Shown here: positions 2,610 through 19,210 of the stretch, piece after piece
Layout: every line of letters starts with the position of its first letter
Position numbering within the stretch: the first letter of the stretch is position 1
Assembly (NCBI GenBank): GCA_018970785.1
Contig: JAGWVR010000024.1
Coordinates: forward strand, 1-42,258
Source of the DNA: Planctomycetota bacterium
GTDB lineage: Bacteria > Planctomycetota > Planctomycetia > Pirellulales > UBA1268
Direction of reading: 5' to 3'
Length of the DNA: 42,258 nt
Position numbers and translations under genes: made by a program
Notes under the pieces: model-generated
The model's database searches: none
Seen by the model: only the letters and a program-made list of their open reading frames with translations
Told to the model about the DNA's origin: nothing

Positions 2610-2712
2610 CACCCAGGGGCGGCTGCGGGCGAGCCATGGACCAGACCGCCCCAACCGGCCGCGTCGGCCCGTGGACGGCAGGGGTCACTGGTGCGATTGG
2701 CGAGACCCGGGA

Positions 2713-2718
2713 TAAGAT
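2713..2718 (+). promoter_or_regulatory. Possible -10 box upstream of the FHA gene
   Basis: TAAGAT occurs about 87 bases before the FHA gene start, in a 195-base gap with no other feature that I recognise. No convincing -35 box lies 16-19 bases upstream, so this is weak. Confidence 0.25.
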
Positions 2719-2804
2719 TGGGCGTTGAAGGTGGGAGTGGGTTGTGGCCGATCGGAGCGCCGCACGGGTCGGTTGCGTGCGGACTGCTGCGCCAGGGGGC
2801 TTGC

Positions 2805-3530
2805 ATGATCACGAAATTGATCGTGGCCAACGGAAAAAGCGCCGGCCGAGCCATTCTCATCAAACGCAACACGCTGCTCATCGGGCGCGCCGAGGAGTGC
2901 GACGTCAGACCGCTGAGCGAGGATGTCAGCCGGCGGCACTGCGCCGTCCACGTCGGCCCGGCCGATGTCTGGGTCGAGGACCTGGGAAGCCGGAACGGCA
3001 CGTTCGTCAACGGCGAGAGGATCAGCGGCAAGGTCAAGGTCGCCTCGGGCGATCTGCTCCGGGTCGGTGCCCTCGAGGTCCGGATCTCGTGCACCGAACC
3101 GGCAGTCGCGGCCGAGTCGGATCAGGACGTGTCGCGGTGGTTGATGGCCGATGACTCTCCGGCCGGCATGTACGACACGACGCGGTCGCTGAAGCCCGAG
3201 CCATCCGCCGCGAGCGACGCCAGCAGCATCCATCACGTGGCGTCCGCCCCGGAACCGTCCACCGACGGCACCGGGTCGATGGTTTCGGGAATTGCCGGGG
3301 GCGGCGGCACGTCGGCCGGTGCAGCTTCGACGGGGATCGGCTCGGGAAGTGCGACCGTCGCCGGCGGCAGCCGGGGCGATTCGTCCCGTGTCGGCTCGAC
3401 GGTGGGCATCGACGCGCTCCGCGACAGCAAGGGGAAGCCGGCCGGCCTTCCCGCCAATTCCAAGAAAGCGGCCGAGAACTCGCGCGACGCGGCCGCCGAG
3501 GCGTTGAAGAAGTTCTTCAACAATCGCTGA
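2805..3530 (+). CDS. FHA domain protein with low-complexity tail
   Basis: The 241-residue protein carries a forkhead-associated (phosphothreonine-binding) domain at about residues 1-96. The core motifs are all present: IGR at 26-28, SRRH at 42-45 and GSRNGTFVNG at 61-70. Residues of about 125-200 are rich in Ser, Gly and Ala and probably disordered. The C-terminal 45 residues are basic and helix-prone (ending LKKFFNNR). FHA proteins bind phosphothreonine targets of Ser/Thr kinases, which are abundant in planctomycetes; no kinase is adjacent here, so the partner is unknown. The ATG at 2805 has an AGGGGG ribosome binding site at 2794-2799. The first 38 in-frame codons upstream look non-coding in character, so I exclude them. 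Confidence 0.88.
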   Translation: MITKLIVANGKSAGRAILIKRNTLLIGRAEECDVRPLSEDVSRRHCAVHVGPADVWVEDLGSRNGTFVNGERISGKVKVASGDLLRVGALEVRISCTEPAVAAESDQDVSRWLMADDSPAGMYDTTRSLKPEPSAASDASSIHHVASAPEPSTDGTGSMVSGIAGGGGTSAGAASTGIGSGSATVAGGSRGDSSRVGSTVGIDALRDSKGKPAGLPANSKKAAENSRDAAAEALKKFFNNR

Positions 3531-4049: not shown

Positions 4050-4098
4050 CCGCTTCCCGGTGTCCTTTTTGGACCGACCCCGCCCTGGTCGGCTCGCG

Positions 4099-4884
4099 AT
4101 GCCCATGCTGTCGGTTGCCGTGTGCCGGTGGGCCCGCTTCGGCGGGATGGTCTTCCTCGCCTGCGCCGCCGGCTGTGGCGGACTCGGCCGAAACGACAAT
4201 GCCGAGGGGGTGAGGCTCTACCAGCAGGGCAACTACCTCGGCGCCGTCACCCACTTCCAGCAGGCGCTCCACCGTCAGCCCGGCAGCCCCGACTGCTTCT
4301 ACAACCTCGGGGCGACCTACCACCAACAGGCCAAGGTCTTCGGCCGTCCAGAGGACGTTCGCACGGCAGAGCAGTACTACAACCTCTGCCTGTCGCGGGC
4401 CCCCGACCACCCCGCCTGCAACCGCGGTCTCGCCGTCCTCCTCGTCGAGACCGGTCGCAGCGACCGGGCAGTCGGCCTCCTCGACGGGTGGGCCCGTCGC
4501 CGCCCCACCGATCCCGATCCGCAGATCGAATTGGCCAGGCTCTGCCAGGAGCACGGCGACCTGCGCGAAGCCGAGACCCACCTCGTCGACGCGCTGGCGA
4601 TCTCCCCCGGCAACCCCCGGGCGCTGGTGGCGCTGGGGCAGTTGCGGGAGGCCACCGGCGACACGACGCTCGCCCTGGCCAATTACTCCCGCGCGCTGGC
4701 CGCCGACGGTGGCCAGCCGGTGGTCGCCGCGCGGGTCGCGGCCCTGTCGCCCGCACCCCCGGTGACCCGCGTCGCCGCACTGCCTCCGGCAGGTGGGTTT
4801 CCTCCACCTCAGCCATCGCCTCTGCCGCAGGCCTGGGGACCGGGAGGACCGCTGCCCTTCACCGGGACGCCTCCGGCCCGTTGA
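4099..4884 (+). CDS. TPR repeat lipoprotein
   Basis: The 261-residue protein has a signal sequence ending in ACAAGC (candidate lipidated Cys26), so it is probably a membrane-anchored lipoprotein. TPR-like helical pairs cover about residues 34-205. One repeat is clear at VRLYQQGNYLGAVTHFQQAL followed by a YNLGATYHQQ helix. The last 45 residues are rich in Pro, Ala and Gly. The start is uncertain: a GTG at 4060 is in frame, but it lies almost at the predicted transcription start, so I prefer the ATG at 4099 (4105 is also possible). A terminator-like hairpin begins at the stop codon. The function is unknown; TPRs usually mediate protein-protein contacts. Confidence 0.8.
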   Translation: MPMLSVAVCRWARFGGMVFLACAAGCGGLGRNDNAEGVRLYQQGNYLGAVTHFQQALHRQPGSPDCFYNLGATYHQQAKVFGRPEDVRTAEQYYNLCLSRAPDHPACNRGLAVLLVETGRSDRAVGLLDGWARRRPTDPDPQIELARLCQEHGDLREAETHLVDALAISPGNPRALVALGQLREATGDTTLALANYSRALAADGGQPVVAARVAALSPAPPVTRVAALPPAGGFPPPQPSPLPQAWGPGGPLPFTGTPPAR

Positions 4885-8005: not shown

Positions 8006-11000
8006 ATGCTCATCCGCGGTCGCGTGGACATGACCTCACTTTCTGGCGGCCCATCGACGCCGCGACGGACGTGGCTGCCCTTCCGGCCATCGGCAACGGC
8101 CGGTCGGCGCGGTGGTGGCTGGCGCGGCCGGCCCTGGATGCTCGCGATCGCCGCGCTGCTCCTGAACGGTCTGGATGGCATCCGCGCCGACGAGCCTTCG
8201 ACGGCGACGCTCACGACCCGCCGGCTGCTCGACGCGCTTGCCGAGCGGCAGATGAACGACGTCTCCCTGTGGGTTCTCGACCGCGTCGAAGCCGATGCCA
8301 CGGCCGACCGGGATCTCAAGGCCGAGGTTCCCTACCGGCGTGCCGAGGCGCTGGTCGCCGCCAGCCGCAGCGAGGCCACGGCCGCCAAACGGTCCGCTTT
8401 GCTCGACCGCGCGGCGGGGGAGATCGACCGGTTCCTGCAGACGGGGCCGAGCGGCGATCTGGCGATCACGGCCTACCAGCAGCTCGGCAACCTGTTGGTC
8501 GAGCGCGGCCGGGCGAAGCTCGAGCAGGCGAAGCGGCCGGGGGAAAACGCCGCGCCCCTCGCCGCCGAGGCGCTCGGGTTCTTCGACCAGGCGATCCGCG
8601 TCCTCGAAGGGCCGAAGCGCGAGCCCGGTGCCGAGATCACCTCCGTGAGCAGCGCCGAGGAGGCGGTTCTCAAGGAGTTGCGGCAGGTCGACGGGCAGCT
8701 CGCGGAAATCGCGGGACCCAAGGACGAGGGGGAGGCCAAACCGCGCCGTCCCGCGCGGCGCCCGGCGGCCGACACGAAGGCCCAGGAGAAGCTCGAGGAG
8801 CGGCAGGACATGCTCCGCGGGCAGCTCCTGAGCACTCGTCTGCTGGCCGCCGCTGCCTGGTTCGAGAAGGCCAAGGCACTGCCGCCGGGAACCAACGAGT
8901 GGCGCGAGACGATGGACGCCGCCGGCAACCGCTATCGTGAGCTGGCCGACAAGTACCCGAGCCGCGGCGCCGGCCTGTTCGCGCGGTACTACGAGGGGCG
9001 CACCTACGCCGCCAAGGGACTCGCCGAGGCGAACGCCGACGAGCGGAAGAAACTCGTCGACCGTGCCCTGGCGACGCTGGCGACGATCAACGGGCTGGAG
9101 GGGGATGCGGGGATCATCCCCGGCCTCCGCGCCAAGGGGATCGCGACGGCGCTCGAGTGCTGGCTCGACACCAAGAACTACGCTGCCTTCGACGACCGCC
9201 TGCAGCGCCTCGCGCTGGCCGCGGTGCCGGCCGATCGGCTCGACGCCGATTGGCTGGCGATGAAATACCGTGCCGCCCTGCTCCTCGAGCAGCGGGCCGC
9301 GGCCGACGACGACAAGGGCAAACGGACGGCGGCGCTGCGCGACGCGCGGAAACTGGCGCTCGAGGTGGCGCGGATCAACCGCGACTACGCCCGCGACGCG
9401 CGGTCCCTGCTCGAGCGCCTCGGCAGTTCCCTTCCCGACGACGGCGACGCGGCGGAATCGTTCGCCGGGGCGTTCGAGGCCGCCGGTGCGTCGCTCGCCG
9501 AGTTCCAGGCGAAACAGGCCGCGCTCAAGCAGGCGCGCGCGGCCGGTCAGCCCGGCGACGACGAGGCCGCCGCCGTGTCCGCGGCCCGTGACAAGGCGCT
9601 GGTGAGCGTCCGCAGGGTGATCGAGCGTGCCGGGCCTGACGACCGCGAGCAGCTCAACCAGGCGCGGTACTGGATGACGTTCCTGCTCTACGATGCGCGC
9701 CGGCTCCACGACGCCGCGGCGCTGGGTGATTTTCTCGTCACCCACTACCCCAATGCCCGCGGGAGCCGGCAGGCGGCGACGATCGCCATGGCCAGTTGGC
9801 AGCAGCTCGCCCGGAGCGGCCCCCAGCCGTGGCGGTCGGCCGCGCGCGACCGCTGCGCCGACGTCGCCGAGCGGATCATGCGGACCTGGCCCGCCGACGC
9901 CGAGGGGGCCGAAGCGGGCGTCATCGCGCTGGCCAGCGCCGGCGAGTCGCACGACGGCGCCCGGCTGGTCGAACTGATCGGCCGGATCCCCGACGGCTCG
10001 CCGCGGCGCGGTGAATTGCAGCTCCGCGGCGGTGCGGCCCTGTGGCGCGAGGTCCAGGAGCAGCGGCGCCTGCCCGCCGCGGAGCGTCTCCCCGAGGAGA
10101 CGGTCGCCGCCTGGCGCGACACGGCCGTGCGGTCGCTCGACGCCGGGCTGGCAGCCGTGCCCGAGGGGGCCCGGCCCGATGCCGCGACCGTCGCCGGTGC
10201 CCTGGCGCGGGCCCAGGTGGCGCTCGACGACGGCGACCTGCCGCGGGCGATGCAACTCCTCGACCACCCCGGCCATGGCCCCTGGACCGTCGTCAGCGTT
10301 GAGCCCGGCGATCCGGCGCTGGCCACCGGGCCGCTCGCGGAAGGTGCTCTGTCGGTGGCGCTGCGGGCGTTCATCCAGTCGTCGGCCACCGACCCCTCGG
10401 CGCTGGGCCGCGCCCAGCAGGCGATGGATCGGCTCGAAAAACTCGCCGGCACCGGTGCCGAGGCGTCCGCGAAACTGACCGCGATGTATCTGGCGATGGG
10501 GCGCGATCTCGAGGGGCAATTGGCCGAGTTGGCGGCCGAGGGCGCACAGACACCCGAGACGCAGGCGAAGCTCAAGGCCCTCGTCGGCGGGTTCGAGCAA
10601 TTTCTCGATGGCGTCGCCCGCCGCGACGCGAAGGTCTCGTCGCGGATGTGGGTCGGCAACACGTACCTCAGCCTCGGCGCCGGCGGCGGTGCCGCGGGGG
10701 TGGGGCGCGAGCGGGCCGCCGGTTTCCTCGACAAGGCGGTGAAGTCGTTCGAGGGGGTGCTGTCCACCGGGGGAGACGAGGTCGCGCGATTCGAGCCGTC
10801 GATCCGCCTCCGGCTCGCCGGCGCCTACCGCGAGCTGGGGCGGTTCGACGAGGCGCTCACGCACCTCGACTGGGTGCTCTCCGATCCGAAGCGGCAAAAC
10901 GCCCTCGACGTCCAGCTCCAGGCCGCCGAACTGCTCCAGGCCGCCGGCGAGAAGGCGGCTGACAAGGCCCGTGCCGAGACGTTCCTCCGCGAATCGATCG

Positions 11001-11353
11001 TCGGCCGGACGGCCGGCAAGAGCGTCGCCTGGGGCTGGGGCGGGATCGCGTCGAAGCTCTCCCGTCAGGCCTTCGCGTCGGAGGATCCCCGCGCCCTCGA
11101 GGCCCGGGCCCGCTTCTTCGACGCACGCTACCGTGTCGCCGCCGCCCGGCTCCTCCAGGCCCGCCGCAGCGACTCCCAGCGCGCCAAGCTGCTCGACATG
11201 GCGTTCAACGACGTCGCCATCACCTACAAGCTCTACCCCGGCCTCGGTGGCGAGGCCTCGCGTGCCCGTTTCGACAAGCTCCTCCGCGAGATCCAGAAGG
11301 AGCGTGGCGCGCCCAGCCCGTCGGGCCTCGCCGAACTGGAGAACGCAGGATGA
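8006..11353 (+). CDS. Large secreted TPR-like alpha-helical protein
   Basis: The 1115-residue protein has a long basic N-terminus, then a hydrophobic segment at about 44-56 and a likely signal cleavage site near residue 61. It is therefore probably exported. Nearly all the rest is Ala/Leu/Arg-rich helix with TPR-like patterns. Examples are AYQQLGNLLVERGRAKLEQA near 150 and IRLRLAGAYRELGRFDEALTHLDWVL near 932. A highly charged segment (about 225-270, rich in K, R and E) may be coiled coil. Either the ATG at 8006 or the one at 8030 could be the start. The stop codon overlaps the next TPR gene by 4 bases (ATGA), and exbB-exbD-exbD follow. The function is unknown; context suggests a periplasmic scaffold working with the TolQ/TolR-like proteins. 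Confidence 0.82.
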   Translation: MLIRGRVDMTSLSGGPSTPRRTWLPFRPSATAGRRGGGWRGRPWMLAIAALLLNGLDGIRADEPSTATLTTRRLLDALAERQMNDVSLWVLDRVEADATADRDLKAEVPYRRAEALVAASRSEATAAKRSALLDRAAGEIDRFLQTGPSGDLAITAYQQLGNLLVERGRAKLEQAKRPGENAAPLAAEALGFFDQAIRVLEGPKREPGAEITSVSSAEEAVLKELRQVDGQLAEIAGPKDEGEAKPRRPARRPAADTKAQEKLEERQDMLRGQLLSTRLLAAAAWFEKAKALPPGTNEWRETMDAAGNRYRELADKYPSRGAGLFARYYEGRTYAAKGLAEANADERKKLVDRALATLATINGLEGDAGIIPGLRAKGIATALECWLDTKNYAAFDDRLQRLALAAVPADRLDADWLAMKYRAALLLEQRAAADDDKGKRTAALRDARKLALEVARINRDYARDARSLLERLGSSLPDDGDAAESFAGAFEAAGASLAEFQAKQAALKQARAAGQPGDDEAAAVSAARDKALVSVRRVIERAGPDDREQLNQARYWMTFLLYDARRLHDAAALGDFLVTHYPNARGSRQAATIAMASWQQLARSGPQPWRSAARDRCADVAERIMRTWPADAEGAEAGVIALASAGESHDGARLVELIGRIPDGSPRRGELQLRGGAALWREVQEQRRLPAAERLPEETVAAWRDTAVRSLDAGLAAVPEGARPDAATVAGALARAQVALDDGDLPRAMQLLDHPGHGPWTVVSVEPGDPALATGPLAEGALSVALRAFIQSSATDPSALGRAQQAMDRLEKLAGTGAEASAKLTAMYLAMGRDLEGQLAELAAEGAQTPETQAKLKALVGGFEQFLDGVARRDAKVSSRMWVGNTYLSLGAGGGAAGVGRERAAGFLDKAVKSFEGVLSTGGDEVARFEPSIRLRLAGAYRELGRFDEALTHLDWVLSDPKRQNALDVQLQAAELLQAAGEKAADKARAETFLRESIVGRTAGKSVAWGWGGIASKLSRQAFASEDPRALEARARFFDARYRVAAARLLQARRSDSQRAKLLDMAFNDVAITYKLYPGLGGEASRARFDKLLREIQKERGAPSPSGLAELENAG

Positions 11354-12591
11354 TCCGTGCCCCCGCCCCCAGCCGACGGTCGACGGCGCCGAGCGCGACC
11401 GTGGTTGTCCCTGGACGAAGCCCTCTGATGCCAGTGTCCACCGGGCCGCTGGTGACCGGGGCGACCGCGGGAAACGCCGGGGGGCTCCCGGGGCGCCGTC
11501 GGCCGGATCGGGCGGCCGATCGTTTTTTCCACGGTCTGCTGGCGGCCGTTGGCGGGTTTGTTGTCGCGGCGCTGCTGGCGCCGCTGGCCGGCGCCCAGAC
11601 CACCGACCGGATCGTGACGACCGACGGCACCTTGACGGGCAAGATCACCGGTCTGAGCCCCGACGAAGTGCAGCTCGAGGATCGGGCCGGCGAGATCCGC
11701 CGCGTGCCGATCGATCGGCTCAAGGACGTGCAATTCGCCGGCGAGCCGCAGTCGCTGCGGTCGGCGCGGGGAATGCTGGCGCGGGGGCGCGCCGCCGAGG
11801 CCCTCGCGGAGATCGCCAAGGTCGAGGCCGCCGAGCTCGACGGCGTCGAGGCTCCGATCCTCGCCGACATGGACTACGTCAAGGCGGTCGCTGCCGGGCG
11901 GGTGGCCCTGGCCACCGGCGCCGATCCGCGCGACGCCGGCAGGTTGGTCAACGAGTTCCTCGGCAAGCACGCCTCCGGACACCATTTCTACGAAGCCCAG
12001 GAGTTGCTCGGCGACCTCCTCGCCCGCGCGGGGCGCGGCGACAACGCCCTCGCCGCCTACGCGCTGCTCGCCAAGGGGCCGCCGGCCTTCAAGGTCAGGG
12101 CGGCCGCGGCCCGGGCGCGGATGATGCTCGAGCAGAGGAAGTTCGCCGAGGCGCTCACCGAGTTCGACGCGGCGCTGGCGGTCGATGCCGGAGACGATGC
12201 CGGCAGCGCACAGAAGCGCGCCGCCGCGCTGGGGCGGGCGCGGTGCCTGATCGGACTGGGGCGGAACGACGACGCGATCGCCGTCGCCCGTGGCGCGATC
12301 GCGCAATCCAACCCCGAGGAGGGGGAGACGCTGGCGGTGGCCTACAACACGCTGGGGTCCGCCTACCGGGCCACCGGCGCCAACGACCAGGACGCCCTGA
12401 TCGCGTTTCTCACCGTCGATTTGGTCTACAACGGCTCCCCCGAGGCCCACGCCGAGGCGCTGTGGAACCTCGCGGAACTGTGGGAGCGGGGACAGAATCC
12501 CGAGCGCGCACGCGAAGCCCGCGCCACCCTGGAAGCGAGTTATCCCGGCAGCCGTTGGGCGAAGCAGGCCGCCACCCCGAAAGCGTCCTGA
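11350..12591 (+). CDS. Secreted TPR protein with N-terminal beta-rich segment
   Basis: The 413-residue protein starts at an ATG that overlaps the previous stop (ATGA), so translation is probably coupled. A hydrophobic stretch at about 60-79 and AGA before Gln83 make a plausible export signal, with a long, positively charged N-region. ATG 11428 (residue 27) is an alternative start. Residues of about 87-126 (VTTDGTLTGKITGLSPDEVQ and on) look like a small beta-barrel fold seen before TPRs in planctomycete proteins. TPR-like helices run from about 130 to the end. Together with the 1115-residue protein it may form an envelope complex served by the ExbB/ExbD proteins downstream. Confidence 0.8.
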   Translation: MIRAPAPSRRSTAPSATVVVPGRSPLMPVSTGPLVTGATAGNAGGLPGRRRPDRAADRFFHGLLAAVGGFVVAALLAPLAGAQTTDRIVTTDGTLTGKITGLSPDEVQLEDRAGEIRRVPIDRLKDVQFAGEPQSLRSARGMLARGRAAEALAEIAKVEAAELDGVEAPILADMDYVKAVAAGRVALATGADPRDAGRLVNEFLGKHASGHHFYEAQELLGDLLARAGRGDNALAAYALLAKGPPAFKVRAAAARARMMLEQRKFAEALTEFDAALAVDAGDDAGSAQKRAAALGRARCLIGLGRNDDAIAVARGAIAQSNPEEGETLAVAYNTLGSAYRATGANDQDALIAFLTVDLVYNGSPEAHAEALWNLAELWERGQNPERAREARATLEASYPGSRWAKQAATPKAS

Positions 12592-12614
12592 GGAACCGGA
12601 GTCGGCGGGGAGCT

Positions 12615-12644
12615 TTGCCCCCTGCGACGCACGTGGAATACGAT
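12615..12644 (+). promoter_or_regulatory. Putative promoter of exbB-exbD-exbD
   Basis: TTGCCC at 12615-12620 and TACGAT at 12639-12644 are separated by 18 bases, in the 86-base gap before exbB. It would allow the channel genes to be transcribed apart from the TPR genes. Confidence 0.45.
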
Positions 12645-12677
12645 CCTGTCCGAATCGATCCCCCCGAGGAGTGCGGC

Positions 12678-13592
12678 ATGGCGAGCGGAACGAGCGAACG
12701 ACGGACCGGCGGGGCACGGCTGGCGTCGATCGTGGCGCTGTACGGCGGAATGATCCTGCAGGCCGCGGCGGGGCTGCCGGGCGGCGTGCCCGGCCTCGCG
12801 ATGGTCGCCCTGCCGGCGGCGCTCGTCGTCGCGCCGGCGGCAGCGTATGCCCAGGACGACGCCGCCGACGAGGCCCCAGCCGAGGAAGGCGAGAGCATGC
12901 TCGTCTTCTACTACAAGGCGCTCGGGCTGCGGTACGTGATCGTGTTCCTCGTGCTGTCGTTCCTGCTGGTCGCGCTGTTGGTGATGTGTTTTCTGCAGAT
13001 CCGGCGGCAGGTGCTCATCCCGCCGGCGCTGCGCGACGGATTCAAGGCCCACCTCGACAACAAGGAATACCAGCAGGCCTACGAGTTGGCGAAGTCCGAC
13101 GATTCCTACCTCGGCCGCGTCCTCGCCGCCGGGATGGGGAAGCTCCAGGCGGGCTACCCTGCCGCGGTCGAGGCGATGCAGGAGGTCGAGGCCGAGGAGT
13201 CGATGAAGCTCGACCACAAGGTGAGCTACATCTCACTGATCGGGGCGCTGGCGCCGATGTTCGGCCTGCTCGGCACGGTCGACGGGATGGTGTCGGCGTT
13301 CATGGTGATCGCCAAGAGCGCCACCGCCCCGAAGCCGTCGGAGCTCGCGATCGGCATCTCCCAGGCGTTGATCACGACGCTCATCGGCCTGTGGCTGGCG
13401 ATCCCGGCGATCGCCTGTTTCGCGCTGTTCCGCAACTGGCTCCAGCGGCTCAACGGCGAGGTCGACGAGGAGGCGCTGGCGCTGATGGAACGGTTCGAGA
13501 GCATGGGGACGAAGACGGCCCGCGGAGCCACCGGTTCGGGCGCCGGTTCGGCGGCGGCAGCGGGACGCGAGGATCGCACCCATGGCGCGTAG
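12678..13592 (+). CDS. MotA/TolQ/ExbB proton channel family protein
   Basis: The 304-residue inner-membrane protein is the stator-type component of a proton-driven energy transducer. It has an N-terminal signal-like region (1-58, ending YAQ) and a short acidic periplasmic segment (59-74). Membrane spans lie at about 85-107, 184-210 and 225-250. The signature ISLIGALAPMFGLLGTVDGM is at about 185-204 and the last span contains the conserved Thr pattern ALITTLIGLWLAIPA. The start has a GAGGA site at 12666-12670. Its end overlaps the first exbD by 11 bases, so the genes are co-translated. The extra N-terminal signal and acidic stretch are unlike E. coli ExbB, but long N-termini occur in other ExbB groups. 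Confidence 0.92.
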   Translation: MASGTSERRTGGARLASIVALYGGMILQAAAGLPGGVPGLAMVALPAALVVAPAAAYAQDDAADEAPAEEGESMLVFYYKALGLRYVIVFLVLSFLLVALLVMCFLQIRRQVLIPPALRDGFKAHLDNKEYQQAYELAKSDDSYLGRVLAAGMGKLQAGYPAAVEAMQEVEAEESMKLDHKVSYISLIGALAPMFGLLGTVDGMVSAFMVIAKSATAPKPSELAIGISQALITTLIGLWLAIPAIACFALFRNWLQRLNGEVDEEALALMERFESMGTKTARGATGSGAGSAAAAGREDRTHGA

Positions 13593-14025
13593 GCCCACCA
13601 CGGCGGGGCCGCCGACCACCGACATCGACATGACGCCGATGATCGACATGACGTTCCAGTTGATCACGTTCTTCATGTTCGTGATGAACTTCTCCGAGGC
13701 CGAGCAGGACGAGCGGATCCGGCTGCCGCTCAGCCAACTCGCCAAGCCGTCGGATCGCATCGTCGAGAAGCCGCTCACGCTCCAGCTCACCAGCGCCGGG
13801 TCGGTGATCTACGCCGGCGAGTTGGTCGCCGTCCGCGACATCGGCGGCTACCTGGAACGCGAGAAGACGGTGATGCGCGACGCCGGGCGCGAGCCCGCCG
13901 GGGCGACGGTGATCATCCGGGCCGACGGCCGGTCGAAGACCGGCGAGGTCCAGGAGATCATCCGCATCTGCCAGGAGAAGGGGTTCGAACGCTTCGCCCT
14001 CCGGGCCCAGTACGACGAGGGGTAG
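13582..14025 (+). CDS. ExbD/TolR family biopolymer transport protein, copy 1
   Basis: The 147-residue protein has one membrane span (about 23-40) preceded by the family motif DIDMTPMIDMTFQL, with the proton-pathway aspartate at D22. The rest is a periplasmic domain containing TVIIRADGRSKTGEVQEIIRICQEKGF, a normal TolR/ExbD feature. It overlaps exbB by 11 bases and is followed 4 bases later by a second exbD. The two copies are clearly divergent, so they probably play different roles in one complex. Confidence 0.93.
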   Translation: MARRPTTAGPPTTDIDMTPMIDMTFQLITFFMFVMNFSEAEQDERIRLPLSQLAKPSDRIVEKPLTLQLTSAGSVIYAGELVAVRDIGGYLEREKTVMRDAGREPAGATVIIRADGRSKTGEVQEIIRICQEKGFERFALRAQYDEG

Positions 14026-14029
14026 CACG

Positions 14030-14527
14030 ATGCGACGGCGGGCCGCCAGCACGCTCGGCGACAAAGTCGAGATCAACATGACGCCGATGATCGACGTCGT
14101 GTTCCAGTTGATGTCGTTCTTCATGTGCACCCTCAAGGTGGTCGCGCCGGAGGGGGATTTCGACGTCCGCATGCCCCTGGCGACGGCGGCTGCGGCCGTT
14201 CCCGACGACCAGCAGGTGCCGCCGATCCGCGTGCGCCTCGCCGCGAATCCCGACGGCCAGCTCGCCGGGATCACGATGAACGGCGCCCCGATCGCCGACT
14301 TCGCCGAGCTGCGCCGCAAGGTGGTCGGGTTGGTGGGCGATGCCCGCGGCCCCAACTCGCTCGCCGAGCGGACCGAGGTCGAGTTCGACTGCGACTACGG
14401 TCTCCGCTACTTCAACGTCGTGCAGGCGATCACCGCGGTGTCGGGCACGGTCGAGGACGGCCGGATCGTCGAGCTGGTGCGGAAGATCAAGTTCACGCCG
14501 CCGAAACGAGGCGCGCCGCGCGGCTGA
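14030..14527 (+). CDS. ExbD/TolR family biopolymer transport protein, copy 2
   Basis: The 165-residue second TolR-like protein keeps INMTPMIDVVFQL with D22 and a single membrane span (about 19-36). Its periplasmic part is different from copy 1, longer, and ends in a basic tail. It is the last gene of the plus-strand block and converges with xerD after 19 bases, with no obvious terminator between. A set of one TolQ and two TolR proteins is the arrangement seen in the Myxococcus AglRQS machinery; that comparison is composition only. Confidence 0.92.
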   Translation: MRRRAASTLGDKVEINMTPMIDVVFQLMSFFMCTLKVVAPEGDFDVRMPLATAAAAVPDDQQVPPIRVRLAANPDGQLAGITMNGAPIADFAELRRKVVGLVGDARGPNSLAERTEVEFDCDYGLRYFNVVQAITAVSGTVEDGRIVELVRKIKFTPPKRGAPRG

Positions 14528-14546
14528 TGGCGTGGTCGGACGCGTC

Positions 14547-15532
14547 TCAGCCGCGCGGGTGGAAGCGGCCGTGGACCCGGCGGAGCCGCCCCGAATCGAC
14601 GTGCGTGTAACGCTGCGTCGTGGCGATGCTCGAATGGCCGAGCATCTCCTGCACGTGGCGGAGGTCGACGCCGCCGGCCACGAGGTGGGTGGCGAACGAG
14701 TGCCGCAGCGTGTGGGGACCGATGTCGGCGGGGATCCCCGCGGCGGCGGCATGGTGGCGGACGAGCTCCCAGATGCGCATCCGCGACAGGCGATTGCCCC
14801 GCGACGACACCACCGCCCAGTCCGCCGCGTTCCCCGCGGTCCATTCGCGCCGCGGCCCCTCGAACCAGGCCGTCAGGGCGTCGATCGCCCGCTTGCCGAG
14901 GGGCACGACGCGCTGCTTGTTTCCCTTCCCGCGGCAGGTGCAGTAGCGCTCGGCGAGGTGGACGTCGGCCAGCCGCATCCCCGACACCTCCGATGCCCGG
15001 CAGCCGGTCGCGTAGAGGAGCTCGAGGAGTGCCCGGTCGCGGAGGCCGTGGGCGGCACGCGCGTCGGGAGCGGCCAGCAGCCGATCGACCTGCCGTGGGG
15101 ACAGGGTCGCCGGCATCGTGTCGTCGCGCCGGGAGGCGGCGAGGGCCGTCGCCGGGCTGTCGACCACGAGCCCCTCGAGCTGGAGGAAGGCGTAGAACAC
15201 CCGCAGCGTCGCCGCCTGCCGGGCGATGCTCGCGCGGGCCAGGCCCCGGCGTGCCAGCGTTGCGACGTAGTCGCCGAGGACGGTCACCGAGGCGGTGGTC
15301 GCCGGCCGGCCCCCGAGCCACTCGGCGAACGTGGCGAGGTCCCGGCGGTAGGCGGCCTGGGTGTTGTCGGCGAGGCTCCGCTCGTGCCGGATGTAGCGGA
15401 GGAAGCGGTCGGTGAGGGAGGCGATCGACTCCGCCTCGCCCGGTGCGGCGGGGGCGTCGGAGAACAGGATCTGCCGCGGACCCCGTCGCCCGGCGGGACG
15501 GCCGGCGGCGCCCGCCGCCGGCTCGCCTTCGG

Positions 15533-15536
<4 letters not shown>
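14547..15536 (-). CDS. Tyrosine recombinase XerC/XerD
   Basis: The 329-residue protein is a site-specific recombinase of the Xer type, which resolves chromosome dimers at dif sites. It has the N-terminal SAM-like core-binding domain (about 39-125) and the catalytic domain (about 140-320). The catalytic set is complete: R180 (GCRASE), K204, H275 and R278 (HTLRHSF), H301 (LGHSS) and Y310. It is about 25 residues longer at the N-terminus than usual. The GTG start overlaps the metH stop (GTGA), and no other plausible start exists before the domain. It shows no att site or mobile cargo, so it looks like a housekeeping gene. Whether it is XerC or XerD cannot be decided from sequence alone. Confidence 0.93.

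Positions 15537-19210
<3,674 letters not shown>

Follow-up and report, generated by a model that had tools for sequence, protein, structure and literature searches.

The operon described here lies on the forward strand of a planctomycete contig, at positions 8006-14527 of the window (the whole stretch of 42,258 nucleotides that was analysed). Its five genes are TPR1, TPR2, TolQ, TolR1 and TolR2, and together with the secretins that accompany the operon in related classes they point to an envelope-spanning machine that is not yet described. On balance, and with modest confidence, we favour a PMF motor that has TolR1:TolR2 as its stalk, acts through periplasmic TPR solenoids and was ancestrally tied to an outer-membrane secretin.

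Organization of the operon

TPR1 is a 1115-aa ORF (8006-11353, mature part approximately 8189-11350) followed by TPR2, an ORF of 413 aa (11350-12591, mature part from approximately 11593), and the two ORF calls overlap by ATGA; both start codons are uncertain. The TolQ/ExbB-like channel (12678-13592) has 304 aa when started at 12678, which is likelier than 12671, and its N-terminus is kept in relatives. TolR1 (13582-14025, 147 aa) and TolR2 (14030-14527, 165 aa) complete the plus-strand layout, which ORF calls and Pfam confirm as it was first read. The genes had been described as overlapping or 4 bases apart, which holds for the ATGA, for the 11-bp overlap of TolQ and TolR1 and for the 4-bp gap between the TolR genes, but TPR2 and TolQ are separated by 86 bp.

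Upstream of the operon are serC and serA (ORFs read by eye), while an integrase-family recombinase and a metH-like gene, the latter assigned by reading, lie downstream in convergent orientation. Further upstream, before serC, the window encodes an FHA-domain protein without a TonB domain (2691-3530) and, at 4060-4884, a TPR protein whose start (LACAAGCGG) resembles that of a lipoprotein; family relatives also show TPR matches at this second position, ahead of the operon. TPR2 itself has a 5' end (11350-11550, residues approximately 5-66) that matches dozens of places in same-genus genomes and, read by eye, contains a G+C-rich inverted repeat with a T-run behind it; for this reason the TPR2 start codon is uncertain.

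The TolQ-TolR1-TolR2 motor

The channel matches MotA_ExbB (PF01618, 1.6e-24), and TolR1 and TolR2 match ExbD (PF02472, 1e-18 and 5.6e-15, respectively), assignments that alignment of the two TolRs also supports. In the alignment to PDB 5sv0, TolQ Thr200 (13275-13277) corresponds to ExbB Thr148 and Thr234 (13377-13379) to ExbB Thr181, both of which are kept in relatives. Both TolRs carry MTPMID, whose Asp, at the proton-binding position, is Asp22 in each (TolR1, 13645-13647; TolR2, 14093-14095) and is invariant among 18 aligned class sequences of each protein. They are nevertheless clearly different, with the signatures QDERIxLPxSQLAKP in TolR1 and EGDFxIxMP in TolR2, and both are retained. The initial description of an ExbB/TolQ-like channel with two clearly different ExbD/TolR proteins is thus borne out by Pfam, alignments and motor residues. 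With MotA_ExbB and ExbD domains and the proton-path Thr and Asp residues, the operon has the features of a 5:2 ion motor and is classed as no more than a variant within that motor family. PDB matches of TolR1 to designed PPR proteins were rejected as repeat noise.

The TPR proteins

TPR1, TPR2 and TolQ have a hydrophobic signal-peptide-like N-terminal segment in members across the phylum, as judged from hydrophobic stretches rather than by a trained predictor; in TolQ, this extra segment ends near AYAQ. TPR1 and TPR2 are therefore predicted to be exported, and the earlier claim of two exported TPR proteins stands as a prediction. In its sequence, the window's TPR1 shows a weak TPR signal (best E 0.025), while its relatives have a clear one, to 2e-12, and the predicted structure of TPR1 is all-helical (pLDDT 67). 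TPR2 aligns across the phylum (30 sequences), and AlphaFold2 predicts for it (pLDDT 82.6) an N-terminal five-strand barrel (strands E6-E47, 11608-11733) and then TPR hairpins. Both models rest on shallow alignments of window and related-locus sequences. The fold matches of TPR1, a low-confidence model, and most of those of TPR2 are generic solenoids and were set aside. A search of a plasmid collection with TPR2 gave no match.

Periplasmic TPR scaffolds around a 5:2 ion motor are known from the Campylobacter flagellar motor, in which PflA and PflB form the scaffold. The TPR2 model matches scaffold chain 9hmf_K with a TM of 0.61 on the query, ranked 34th, which is probably generic TPR similarity, and the operon locus differs in having no flagellar genes.

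Conservation of gene order

Orthologues of TPR1 and TPR2 occur class-wide, and TPR2 is present in 57/60 family genomes. Counted by hand, with loci cut by contig ends excluded, TPR2 is followed by TolQ in approximately 70 of 76 assessable class genomes (28/28 family loci and 42/48 others), and outside the class a comparable module is found at ten loci within the phylum. Such conservation across many genomes rules out a chance gene arrangement. The earlier note had let its reading depend on conservation of the gene order beyond close relatives and on TPR proteins that are not cytoplasmic; the order recurs across the class and in other classes, and the TPR proteins are predicted to be exported.

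Six genomes depart from the TPR2-TolQ order. Three of them, G124, G277 and G333, which belong to a single family of the class, encode an orthologous TolQ-TolR1-TolR2 at another place in the genome (TolR2 E 1e-51 to 1e-56), and their loci L125, L124 and L123 show the order of the motor trio to be intact away from the TPR pair. No TolR2 match better than 1e-11 to 1e-14 was found in G137, G289 and G317, so that the motor appears lost or far diverged. Since TPR1-TPR2 persist in these last three, the TPR pair may work without this motor. Neither TPR2 nor a close TolR2 was found in G309 and G325. At f21, f44 and f55, the TPR1 position is occupied by a TPR protein that the TPR1 profile misses. At L093:6953-8223 (G281), there are two tandem TolR2 copies, with one in-frame TAG in the whole-genome match there.

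ExbD was found in 35/35 family genomes, of which 34 are near-complete and one is that of the window; seven of the 34 have the operon pair as the only ExbD found. The TolQ tree broadly tracks host groups, as expected from vertical descent. It separates the secretin-linked rows from the class (84/84 support) and places the unlinked paralogous TolQs of the class in a starred clade of their own, while support for a single group of the operon TolQs of the class is not strong (41/66). The main texts of the essential-gene papers on Planctopirus and Verrucomicrobium do not mention tol/exb genes.

Secretins beside the operon in other classes

TPR-secretin lipoproteins flank the operon in eight of the ten loci outside Planctomycetia; of the other two, L063 is cut upstream by the contig end and L068 has no secretin. 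A lipoprotein of approximately 900 aa with TPRs and a secretin domain directly follows TolR2 in L064 (E 9.7e-26, with STN), L074 (2.7e-25), L077 (1.3e-22) and L078 (3.8e-25), and secretin homologues lie upstream of the operon in L071, L073, L074, L076, L077, L078 and L082. The TPR-secretin lipoproteins are encoded at L064:4815-7520; L071:1915-5007; L073:6767-9451; L074:4701-7451 and 13503-16019; L076:1-5700; L077:4310-7057 and 13040-15778; L078:4870-7566 and 13538-16168; and L082:1126-4512. In L077, the secretin ORF begins approximately 3 bases past the last TolR ORF.

The families nearest to these flanking secretins are Amuc_1098 (E 9e-32), MshL and PilQ, at scores far below the cut-off (110 against 750 bits), and the outgroup secretins differ from them in their linkage to a TolQ-TolR-TolR motor. 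The window itself has no secretin, and none was found at Planctomycetia loci or in 1.59 Mb (approximately 56%) of G004, a family genome. In the openly accessible literature, no description of a secretin-motor linkage was found.

The proposed machine

The favoured machine would be a PMF motor of the TolQ/TolR (5:2) type, with five TolQ forming the channel and a TolR1:TolR2 heterodimer as the moving stalk, each partner contributing its own proton-binding Asp. TPR1, as a long alpha-solenoid, and TPR2, as a barrel-plus-TPR protein, may serve in the periplasm as receivers of the force or as a scaffold of the motor, and so stand in for a TonB/TolA-type arm. Because the two TolRs are not equivalent and no arm was found, the most economical force path runs from TolR1:TolR2 to the TPR proteins; that the parts form such a complex, that the TolRs pair as a heterodimer, how the force travels and what the machine does are all inferred. 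Since the module lies beside outer-membrane TPR-secretins in other classes, its ancestral output would most likely have been at a secretin complex. In Planctomycetia, no secretin is linked to the operon, and a constitutive envelope job seems likelier than nutrient uptake. A more specific version, that of a PMF-driven secretin machine without a TonB/TolA arm whose outer-membrane end has been relocated or replaced in the class of the window, is put forward tentatively, as the less probable side of the question. Of the proton-driven motor or transporter of envelope polymers first suggested, the motor is consistent with the residues found, and the transport of envelope polymers gained no support.

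Comparison with known systems and alternative readings

By sequence, the operon is not a member of the Tol-Pal, AglRQS/Glt or TonB-ExbBD systems. The alternative that survives best, although we consider it unlikely, is a reduced and diverged Tol-Pal in which TolQ/TolR are kept and TPR2 (or TPR1) replaces CpoB/YbgF, and which would help budding cells that lack FtsZ to constrict their outer membrane and keep it intact. The likeness lies in the TolQ/TolR-type motor and in a weakly YbgF/CpoB-like TPR protein: TolQ is the best NCBIfam match of the channel (4.3e-19), the YbgF profile matches 29/30 TPR2 orthologues (best 2e-15), OmpA-domain proteins are present in nearly all tested genomes, and the operon pair is universal in the family. 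However, BamD, PorW and other TPR families match TPR2 too, and the scores fall far under the curated cut-offs (TolQ 69 against 221, TolR 35 against 127, YbgF 28 against 90). These sub-cut-off scores and the absence of TolB from 34 of 35 family genomes (TolB_N 1/35) exclude the operon from Tol-Pal, to which two TolRs and the outgroup secretins are also foreign. Neither TonB_C nor TonB_2 was found in any of the 35 family genomes (34 near-complete and the window's own).

The closest prior art is a set of PVC clusters with the order TPR, tolQ-like, two tolR-like and vWA (PMC12204202, Mol Biol Evol 2025). A TPR gene, a TolQ-like gene and a heterologous TolR-like pair are thus shared within one PVC cluster, which takes away part of the novelty that the earlier note claimed for its candidate machine, while the failure to find a TonB- or TolA-type transducer and the secretin flanking go beyond that note. 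The operon differs in lacking vWA and S-x3-H, in its two exported TPR proteins and in its outgroup secretins. These clusters suggest a second alternative, to which we give a rather low probability, namely that the motor drives a TonB-like S-x3-H arm encoded away from the operon. Six other TolQ/ExbD clusters in the class do have a neighbouring protein with the S-x3-H transmembrane motif, as in TonB. L119:3376-4431 encodes a vWA protein with an S-x3-H helix beside a motor, the L199 motor also adjoins an S-x3-H protein, and at L200 (638-4324 and 5472-8876) an S-x3-H helix is found in a 1229-aa protein beside the motor. A TPR-like protein precedes the L200 motor, matching the published PVC cluster order. 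At L120:1885-3561, L121:8385-10082 and L122:8155-9993, an S-x3-H helix is combined with a squalene-cyclase-like domain near TolQ-TolR-TolR, possibly a further kind of force transducer. However, the motif is found in 0/98 ORFs of the present operon type, and no vWA or S-x3-H protein was seen downstream in inspected class loci; compared with the neighbours of other class motors, this sets the operon apart from the vWA-transducer clusters. The S-x3-H proteins found adjoin other TolQs, and the seven family genomes with the operon pair as their only ExbD also speak against such an arm. A transducer with an unrelated domain could still be encoded apart from the operon.

The analogy first drawn with AglRQS of Myxococcus proved closer than claimed, as exported TPR proteins, GltD (1191 aa) and GltE (471 aa), go with AglRQS (PMC3169522). 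Both systems have a single TolQ, two TolRs and two exported TPR proteins, one large and one smaller, which would fit a Glt/Agl-like core complex for surface motility or surface-polymer movement, as in Myxococcus gliding and sporulation. Membership, however, was not supported: the GltE model (NF033758) matches nine places elsewhere in the genome but none on this contig, the family lacks the TonB domain of GltG, and the locus showed no outer-membrane proteins of the Glt kind; we regard this reading as improbable. A TonB-ExbBD energiser for nutrient uptake, suggested by an ExbB profile match (1.1e-14), is strongly disfavoured and the least probable reading of all, because no TonB C-terminal domain was found in the 35 family genomes and the ExbB and ExbD scores are far below cut-off.

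Significance

The envelope of planctomycetes is unusual, these bacteria divide without FtsZ, and we know of no account of how they energise the outer membrane; Planctopirus limnophila is a genetically tractable member of the group. Among the TolQR-type motors of the window's family, in which TonB was not found, the one encoded here is the most constant. If force does pass from the motor through TPR solenoids to a secretin, the 5:2 motor family would gain a further force path, and the secretin field would be joined with that of the TolQR motors.
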